NCBI RefSeq assembly: GCF_001705035.1
Contig: NZ_MCIG01000031.1
Coordinates: 1 to 33,179 of the forward strand
DNA from: Curtobacterium sp. UCD-KPL2560
Lineage (GTDB): Bacteria; Actinomycetota; Actinomycetes; Actinomycetales; Microbacteriaceae
Reading direction: 5' to 3'
DNA length: 33,179 nucleotides
The translations under genes were made by a program, and so were the position numbers. Shown here in pieces: positions 14,375 to 15,785 of this stretch. How positions within the stretch are numbered: position 1 is the first letter of the stretch; every line of letters starts with the position of its first letter. Below the pieces are notes generated by a model. The model was given only the letters and a program-made list of their open reading frames with translations, searched no databases and had not been told where the DNA came from.

Positions 14375-15061
14375 ATGGCCCTGTTCGGACGACGCAGCAA
14401 GCACGACGTGCGCGACCGCCCCGTCAGCCAGGTCGAGCTGAAGCGCGCGGTCGACGAGGGGTTCCTCATCGCCAAGGCCGCGGTCGTCGTGGCCGTCGCG
14501 AACCGCGTCATCACGAACTCGCTGCGCGACCAGGGGTACTTCGACCACGCGGTCGTCGCCGAGTCCGTGCGTGAGGAACTGCACCGGCTCGCCGAGGAAC
14601 AGCGCGGTGACGCCGCCCGGATGCGCGAGATCCGGTCGCGGTCGAGCAAGCAGACCGGGCGCTCCCGGCACCAGCACGACTACCGCCGCGGGGACGACCT
14701 CAAGCTCCGCACGCGCGAGGCCACGTACGAGCAGCTCGCCACCATGCTCGACCGCCGCCGCGAGGACCAGGGGTTCGTCGATGGCATCGTCCTGCAGGCC
14801 CGGGCACGTGCGTGGGACGACATCGGCACGACGGTCGTGGGACGGCTCGGCTGGGCGCAGCGACCGACGGAGGACTACGAGATCGGCCGCGACGAGCGCC
14901 TGCAGCAGATGCTCGACGAGGACTTCGCCGAGCTGCTCGCGGCGCACCCGGTCGGCTCCGGGACGCCCGAGACCGTGGCAGCGGACGCCGACGAGCCGGA
15001 CGAGGGCGACGGGCCCGAGGACGGCACGGACCCGGCGGACGCGGACGCGGCGCGGCCCTGA
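14375..15061 (+). CDS. Unknown 228-aa protein
   Basis: I do not recognise a domain. The protein starts MALFGRRSKHDVRDRP, has a moderately hydrophobic helix at about residues 26-45 (EGFLIAKAAVVVAVANRVIT) that is probably not a membrane segment, and then a long charged region rich in Arg/Glu/Asp helices (EELHRLAEEQRGDAARMREI; LATMLDRRREDQGF). The last 35 residues are an acidic tail of Asp/Glu/Gly/Pro. Similar proteins in this family have, as I recall, sometimes been labelled asparagine synthase, which the sequence does not support. TATCGT lies 6 nt before ATG, favouring this start and a leaderless mRNA. The gene is divergent from the TetR gene. Confidence 0.75.
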   Translation: MALFGRRSKHDVRDRPVSQVELKRAVDEGFLIAKAAVVVAVANRVITNSLRDQGYFDHAVVAESVREELHRLAEEQRGDAARMREIRSRSSKQTGRSRHQHDYRRGDDLKLRTREATYEQLATMLDRRREDQGFVDGIVLQARARAWDDIGTTVVGRLGWAQRPTEDYEIGRDERLQQMLDEDFAELLAAHPVGSGTPETVAADADEPDEGDGPEDGTDPADADAARP

Positions 15062-15064
15062 CCG

Positions 15065-15099
15065 TGGAACTTGATGTTCCAGTACCGGTCCGGTACCCT
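15065..15099 (+). promoter_or_regulatory. Promoter with two perfect palindromes, upstream of the Abi-like gene
   Basis: TTGATG (15071-15076) and TACCCT (15094-15099) are spaced by exactly 17 nt, the best -35/-10 pair in the window. The -35 box sits in the centre of TGGAACTTGATGTTCCA (15065-15081, 6-nt arms). The spacer and first half of the -10 box are GTACCGGTCCGGTAC (15082-15096, 7-nt arms). These adjoining palindromes look like operators. Transcription is predicted to start near 15105-15107. Confidence 0.65.
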
Positions 15100-15104
15100 G
15101 GACA

Positions 15105-15158
15105 GGTAACGCCCCAGGACCATTCGGCACCGTCGGACTCCTGGGGCAACTGCGTTCC
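15105..15158 (+). ncRNA. Candidate structured RNA upstream of the Abi_2/HEPN gene (abiF-RNA-like position)
   Basis: The predicted transcript begins at the foot of a compact fold. An outer helix pairs GG-AACG (15105-15106 and 15108-15111, U15107 bulged) with CGUU-CC (15153-15158). An inner 8-bp helix pairs CCCCAGGA (15112-15119) with TCCTGGGG (15139-15146), with a 19-nt apical loop and a CAACT(G) bulge on the 3' side. The fold ends just before the ribosome site GGGGAAGG. Structured RNAs called the abiF motif have been described upstream of AbiF/Abi_2 genes; whether this matches that consensus was not tested. It could act as an RNA in its own right or as a leader that controls translation. Confidence 0.5.
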
Positions 15159-15175
15159 GGGGGGAAGGTGCAGGC

Positions 15176-15733
15176 GTGGTCGACATCTCCGAGCTCGAGC
15201 GACTCCCTGCGGTGGTGAGTGCGCCGCGGCTCGCCCGGTACGAACAGCGCTACCGCGGCAGGACCGATCTCGACAGTGTCCGCCTGCTGGAACGGGAGCG
15301 TCGCGCCGTCGACGATGCCCTCGCGACGCTCCGGAGGCGCGGTGTCGCGGATCCGAGCGCGGGCCAGGTCGTCGCGGCGTCGAACTTCGGTCTCGGGGTC
15401 GGCCTGACGGACGCGGGTGTGCCACGGCACCCCACGCTGAGCTACGAGACCGCACTCTGGCAGCCCCGCATCGTCCGAGCGTTCCCGAACCTGGGCACCA
15501 CCCGGCGGAAGCAGCTGCACCGGCAGCTCGACGACCTGCGCCGCTTCCGCAACCGTCTCGCCCACCACGAGCCGGTCTTCGACGCACCGCTCGAACGGAT
15601 CCGCGCGGACCTCGTCGCGGTCGCCCGGGCGGTCGACCTCGACGCAGCGACGCTGATCGGGTCCGCTCAGCGCATCGACGCCGTGCTCGCGCGGAAGCGG
15701 GATGCGATCGAACGGGGCTGCACGGTCATCTGA
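15176..15733 (+). CDS. Abi_2-like HEPN protein (abortive-infection family)
   Basis: A 185-aa soluble protein. The C-terminal half has the Abi_2/AbiD-AbiF-type block: YETALWQPRIVRAFPN (about 86-101), then LRRFRNRLAHHEPVF (about 121-135). Within it R125-N126-x3-H130 is the RNxxxH HEPN ribonuclease motif. In lactococcal Abi systems related proteins stop phage development; HEPN members are typically RNases, so an RNA-cleaving toxin-like role is inferred, not shown. At 185 aa it is shorter than many Abi_2 proteins, and the N-terminal part (VDISELERLPAVVSAPRLARY) looks reduced. GTG 15176 follows GGGGAAGG by 7 nt. It is preceded by a regulated-looking promoter and a foldable RNA and has no other defence neighbour. 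Confidence 0.8.
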   Translation: MVDISELERLPAVVSAPRLARYEQRYRGRTDLDSVRLLERERRAVDDALATLRRRGVADPSAGQVVAASNFGLGVGLTDAGVPRHPTLSYETALWQPRIVRAFPNLGTTRRKQLHRQLDDLRRFRNRLAHHEPVFDAPLERIRADLVAVARAVDLDAATLIGSAQRIDAVLARKRDAIERGCTVI

Positions 15734-15785
15734 CCGGGCCGCAGGACGAGAGCCCGCGCAGCCGCCGGTCCCTAGGCTCGTACCC

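Follow-up and report, generated by a model that had tools for sequence, protein, structure and literature searches.

In the AbiF/RCd22 system of the Clostridioides difficile prophage phi027, RNA and gene are co-transcribed, most transcription ends ahead of the gene, and the protein is bound and neutralised by the RNA both in cis and in trans (PMC12373285). PD-T4-5, the product of an E. coli plasmid gene, confers abortive-infection defence and has been called a distant relative of AbiF/D (PMC9519451), and AbiF itself is regarded as the ancestor of Cas13 (PMC12737573). The general kind, an AbiF-type RNA toxin-antitoxin, is already known. Here we analysed a stretch of 33,179 nucleotides from Curtobacterium sp. 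UCD-KPL2560 (contig NZ_MCIG01000031.1, hereafter the window), which comes from a 3.48 Mb draft assembly of 156 contigs. We conclude, with a probability of roughly 0.7, that one locus in it is an accessory cassette of about 700 bp of an AbiF-type, type III-like toxin-antitoxin defence system, the RNA of which is most likely the antitoxin and the toxin of which is probably inactive in this strain.

The whole cassette (15066..15763, + strand; 698 bp) comprises promoter, RNA and gene and was delimited by BLAST comparison with another genome of the same species (G027), in which the flanking matches end 10 nt apart where the window carries the 698 bp. Folding, a leader alignment and covariation placed a conserved RNA hairpin at 15111..15147 (+), consisting of an outer helix (15111-15119/15139-15147), an inner helix (15123-15128/15132-15137) and an internal loop of CCA opposite C; downstream of the -10 element the window leader reads GTAACGCCCCAGGACCATTCGGCACCGTCGGACTCCTGGGGC. 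An earlier note on this DNA had proposed an 8-bp helix (CCCCAGGA/TCCTGGGG) and a CAACTG stretch, both of which were borne out, with the helix lengthened by the pair G15111-C15147; the inner helix, which lies within its loop, had been overlooked. After the hairpin come a tail (15148..15158, +), which is U-rich in several relatives (e.g. AATTGTTTTCCC) and weakly so in the window, and the likely ribosome-binding site GGGGGGAAGG (15159..15168, +). The minimum free energy of 15105-15175 was -35 kcal/mol (z -2.58), and as the shorter 15105-15162 gave a z of -1.91, folding energy alone is modest evidence.

We found that both helices covaried across 23 leaders with this RNA (type I; 22 distinct), with 98.8% of cells paired and three pairs changed on both sides, in seven such cells. 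None of 500 shuffles, which leave the relatedness among rows in place, equalled the covariation score and 2 of 500 equalled the number of pairs changed on both sides. Further pair types were less telling (52 of 500 shuffles), and no slid version of the hairpin came near the observed pairing. Outside the apical loop and a few paired positions, the type I hairpin sequence is nearly constant. A second RNA type accompanies the same protein family and has another internal-loop sequence; its 22 rows, 20 of them distinct, were 98.6% paired, and in three pairs both sides had changed. A scanner found no terminator-like site in the window. It was also observed that ordinary terminators of the genus (at L073, L075, L076, L079 and L083) share the form AACGCCCC..GGGGCGTTCGTCGTT, resembling the outer part of the leader RNA.

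The relatives come solely from genomes, plasmids and phage records, and those found through the protein alone carried a similar hairpin upstream. From 49 loci (sets A and B) we drew a pattern of CCCCAG..CTGGGG, CCCCGG..CCGGGG or CTCCGG..CCGGAG, 14-50 nt apart, which fits 39 of these source loci vs 20 of 898 control windows. Because this pattern was drawn from A and B after they had been seen, only the fresh set C counts as a test; this set came from a class-wide search with a Nocardia relative, in which 31 of 296 genomes matched at the threshold used and 30 loci were returned. The fixed pattern was present in 25 of these 30 loci vs 11 of 552 control windows, and none of the set C hairpins was of type I. 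The pattern missed L011, L017, L019, L022, L024 and L026 in set A, L097, L106, L108 and L109 in set B and L126, L129, L139, L141 and L146 in set C; some of these show a variant hairpin by eye, and in L022 and L024 the pattern lies beyond the test window. A search for any stem of 8 perfect pairs with a loop of 20-48 was rejected, as it could not tell leaders (12 of 49) from control windows (232 of 898); its limits shut out type I, with its short loops, and type II, with its 7-bp stems, and the C-rich/G-rich pattern took its place. In one locus we observed a c-di-GMP-II-GAG riboswitch match (L142:2570-2682), about 470 nt upstream of the Abi-like gene start and on the opposite strand.

RNA types, assigned by hand for 43 of 45 rows, followed the protein tree, with six changes for six groups against a minimum of five (a mean of 22.2 when shuffled, with none of 200 shuffles as low), on a quick tree in which 19 of 42 inner branches are weak and with near-copies inflating such clustering. 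Type I made up one side of a branch with a support of 99. Four plasmids were picked from 524 matching plasmid records: one from Mycolicibacterium aubagnense has a type I RNA with a homologue, those from the alphaproteobacteria Bosea and Ancylobacter (L159, L160) have a CCCCGG..GCAGAGGC-type hairpin just upstream of the Abi gene, and one from Acetobacter, also with a homologue, gave no clear picture. Given the hairpins in alphaproteobacterial plasmids, the RNA architecture may reach beyond Actinobacteria.

The promoter proposed upstream of the RNA also held up: TTGATG (-35; 15071..15076, +) is followed after a 17-nt spacer by TACCCT (-10; 15094..15099, +), which ends 6 nt before G15106 of a conserved GTAACG, and this distance, together with the conservation of GTAACG, puts the predicted transcription start at 15105..15107 (+). 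A TTGA- or TCGA-type -35 and a TAnnnT -10 stood at the matching place in 14 of the 18 type I leaders whose Abi gene is either whole or broken; L012, L036, L042 and L047 did not show both elements. It should be noted that a strict promoter scanner called zero sites in the window, because TACCCT has 3 of the 6 consensus letters and the scanner requires 4. The case for this putative promoter is its conservation among type I leaders. Over the -35 lies a perfect palindrome, TGGAAC TTGAT GTTCCA (15065..15081). Of 19 leaders examined, 7 had palindromes with arms of at least 5; these all belong to the 13 Curtobacterium leaders and are each centred 33 nt before the RNA G, against a background of 0.4% per centre. 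Other Curtobacterium leaders carry TGGTAC..GTACCA, so both arms have changed together in the window. The palindrome is operator-like, and its jointly changed arms suggest that a DNA-bound repressor may act besides the RNA.

The gene at 15176..15733 (+) encodes an AbiF/PD-T4-5-like HEPN protein of 185 aa with a GTG start, recognised from its open reading frame, profile matches and alignment with relatives. Its RNxxxH motif (R-N-R-L-A-H, R125-H130; 15548..15565, +) was rightly recognised in the earlier note, the columns of R125, N126 and H130 being invariant across 35 aligned rows. PADLOC PD-T4-5 was the best match for the window protein (E 5.6e-6, residues 90-135 only, 46 residues) and for the five intact relatives scanned (E 8e-12 to 5e-17). 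The predicted fold of one intact relative matched PbAbiF bound to non-coding RNA (PDB 8VZ6) with a second structural aligner. With Foldseek by itself, neither the window model nor that of the intact relative had a match at E 0.001 or better, PbAbiF was not among the second aligner's rows for the window model, and searching solved structures by sequence turned up no believable relative.

The compact unit of promoter, structured RNA and AbiF-like HEPN protein that had been proposed here is well supported by covariation, by linkage in fresh loci, by RNA types which track protein clades and by the predicted fold of an intact relative; several results nevertheless weigh against it. Covariation across related genomes was found for both hairpin helices but not for the proposed 6-bp bulged outermost helix, which we rejected as its pairing (65.2% of cells) was much like that of slid versions (65-67%). 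The Rfam abiF covariance model RF03085 (cut-off 37 bits), which the RNA had been expected to resemble, gave no match at gathering score in the window and none up to E 10 on 14950-15350. This model also gave none genome-wide at E 0.001, with control genomes likewise giving none, and no Rfam family, RF03085 included, reached its gathering score in the leaders of the 17 relatives' loci scanned; a match to Rfam Ms_AS-4 (18.2 bits vs a cut-off of 50, E 1.5) was set aside as chance. The anticipated match to Pfam Abi_2 (PF07751) fell below the cut-off (E 0.11, 13.2 vs 25.6 bits), and five intact relatives scored 13.0-23.1 bits. Lastly, the window gene has lost 45 codons (135 nt) in frame relative to its relatives, which had gone unnoticed: residues 33-77 of the relatives are missing at a junction at 15271..15272 (+; exact placement alignment-dependent). 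The deleted part holds 4 of the 10 residues invariant in 45 aligned relatives, and at 15395..15397 (+) Gly replaces a fifth, a Trp (W119 of L048), with few extra changes outside the deletion. AlphaFold2 modelled the shortened protein with a pLDDT of 86.5, and most of the long helix filling residues 30-67 of the intact model is gone. Because the protein is without 45 residues present in intact relatives, the window copy may have stopped working as a defence unit. Judging from the models, its toxin is probably inactive, and the locus is thus likely an intact antitoxin RNA, with its promoter, beside a disabled toxin.

An RNA model gave 14 strong matches (E 7.2e-15 or better) in 66 Curtobacterium genomes. 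A full-length, open Abi frame follows nine of these (G002, G003, G008, G009, G023, G029, G041, G050 and G063), and the other five are two frameshifted copies (G033, G059), the window itself, a stub with a C-terminal remnant (G007) and a place with no Abi gene (G032). One protein remnant without the RNA and without its N-terminal part was found in G058. The weak matches in the genus, 12 of the 26 listed places, were discarded as ordinary terminators or unrelated sequences. As a separate observation, the Abi start in G008 (L003) is ATA in place of the ATG of its closest relative, with an in-frame GTG a few codons upstream. A pattern search gave 17 matches in 398 genomes of the family, with the full hairpin in 12; the five without it were dropped. 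Four of the 12 are Curtobacterium genomes counted already (G000, G002, G009, G033). The remaining eight include intact genes in G098 and G413, broken ones in G091 (stop), G151 (frameshift pieces) and G072 (in-frame loss), and three genomes (G172, G319, G387) with the full hairpin and no Abi match anywhere in the genome. A type I RNA with an intact gene was also found in another family (G657, L092), and of the 23 bacterial type I RNAs, 12 have an intact Abi gene beside them and 6 a broken one, while in 5 cases the gene is missing or nearly so.

In G172, G319 and G387 the RNA stands directly before a gene which follows the Abi gene in G098 and G413, indicating that the locus is the same and has lost its Abi gene. 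We take this adjoining gene to be endonuclease/exonuclease/phosphatase-like. As RNAs stand without an Abi gene at the same locus, the RNA can outlive the toxin gene. However, this is weakened by the fact that four of the five gene-less type I loci have no recognisable promoter, only G007 keeping both promoter and RNA, and that searches which start from the RNA are biased towards intact RNAs.

Five pattern scans of viral contigs gave mixed matches, from which 13 records with a complete hairpin were picked for whole-record search. Three of these (L165, L167 and L173) encode a protein related to that of the window, while L155 carries a tandem of two different RNA types and two canonical Abi_2 genes, with no window-type relative. 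Neither a window-protein relative nor Abi_2, which was searched for in L155 and these records, was detectable in the other nine, which may be fragments. Two of the nine, L170 and L174, are apparently the same phage type, and the RNA of L170 is flanked by a major head protein gene and a tail protein gene; L163, a short record, and L164, whose hairpin has no U-rich tail, are weaker cases. Complete AbiF-type hairpin RNAs, all but that of L155 in records with no detectable Abi gene, lie at L155:6891-7011, L161:519-563, L162:1248-1285, L166:7223-7260, L168:62-88, L170:807-834, L172:616-647 and L174:2116-2143. Not counted among the 13 were L169, L171, L175 and L176, which lack a matching outer helix, L177-L194, where the match is to another RNA type or due to chance, and the exact-match records L152-L154 and L156. 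An abiF RNA has been reported in a cyanophage (PMC9964418), and decoy RNAs have a precedent in RNA anti-CRISPRs (PMC10651486). By analogy, the toxin-less phage hairpins might be decoy antitoxins which switch off host AbiF-like nucleases, an RNA counter-defence comparable to RNA anti-CRISPRs; this is a speculative lead, not a result, and we lean against it. A near-identical hairpin (CCCCGGTGGA..CTCGCCGGGGC) was separately seen in 11 viral records, and in L180, L181, L184, L185, L188, L189, L190 and L192 it stands about 230 nt before a 330-codon open stretch matching the Abi profile. In the two records tested (L180, L185) a Pfam Abi_2 protein was present, and Rfam abiF did not detect the RNA of L180.

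By analogy with C. difficile AbiF/RCd22, one promoter would give rise to a short hairpin RNA and, through read-through, to the mRNA of the HEPN RNase. The RNA most likely acts as an antitoxin, binding the RNase and holding it inactive, and may possibly also serve as an attenuator that limits read-through into the gene; RNA loss during phage infection would free the RNase, halting growth. RNA-protein binding, RNase activity, toxicity, attenuation and the phage trigger are all inferred. The hairpin could instead be solely a cis-acting attenuator or terminator which lowers read-through without binding the protein; in favour of this are the U-rich tract after it in several relatives, the genus terminators of similar outer shape (with weak RNA-model scores) and the absence of a recognisable promoter at four of the five toxin-less bacterial type I loci. 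We consider this unlikely, as the internal loop and inner helix are kept beyond the needs of a terminator, the internal-loop sequences differ between protein clades and are each kept, viral records hold toxin-less copies, and the RNA of the closest characterised relative acts as an antitoxin in trans (PMC12373285). That the RNA is a guide or sensor directing the nuclease to a target, like the CRISPR RNA of Cas13, is hardly credible: AbiF is considered the Cas13 ancestor (PMC12737573), but the hairpin has no variable spacer and the type I sequence barely varies.

The shortened protein might also be functional, as a minimal toxin or as a dominant-negative or immunity form which uses the RNA. Its frame is open, with start, ribosome-binding site and RNxxxH kept and promoter and RNA intact, it has few other changes and a confident model, and G072 (L047) has likewise lost an internal part in frame, at a different place. 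The loss of four invariant residues and most of the 30-67 helix, the Trp to Gly change and the many frameshifted, stopped or deleted copies in the same set make this quite improbable. It is more improbable still that the deletion is an assembly or sequencing artefact in an intact unit. The draft state of the assembly speaks for this, as does the fact that the deletion is unconfirmed, the only other same-species genome searched being without the cassette; an exact in-frame loss of 135 nt would be unusual as an assembly error, and the invariant Trp is also changed.

We found no account of these actinobacterial RNAs in the literature searches made or in the Rfam scans, a negative which does not extend to Zilberzwige-Tal et al. 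(Cell 2025) and is not proof of novelty. If the reading as an AbiF-type toxin-antitoxin is true, there exists a widespread family of actinobacterial HEPN defence nucleases under the control of small hairpin RNAs which Rfam does not detect in the loci scanned. Each protein clade retains its own RNA type, which provides natural matched and mismatched RNA-toxin pairs for questions of specificity, a matter close to the origin of RNA-guided Cas13 from AbiF. A natural test of a role for the RNA alone is given by the many loci in which a broken or deleted toxin stands next to an intact RNA.

ToxIN-type systems have a different toxin fold and repeated RNA units. With these and other type III toxin-antitoxins (PMC5772629) the cassette would share, by analogy only, an RNA antitoxin which neutralises an RNase toxin. 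PD-T4-5 is the best PADLOC match of the window protein, and the available text of its report mentions no RNA for it (PMC9519451). Compared to PbAbiF-AbiFr (PDB 8VZ6; PMC12373285, PMC12737573), the intact relative has 15% identity in the structural alignment, a shorter protein (229 vs 297 residues), a different RNA and no sequence-profile match. RCd22 contains a pair of abiF motifs (RF03085), with a terminator ahead of the gene (PMC12373285), whereas the window has a single, RF03085-negative hairpin and a protein under the Pfam Abi_2 cut-off. The order of the parts is that of AbiF/RCd22, with a promoter, a structured RNA at the 5' side and then a HEPN RNxxxH protein, and the role we propose for the hairpin RNA, that of an antitoxin, is the one which RCd22 plays (PMC12373285).
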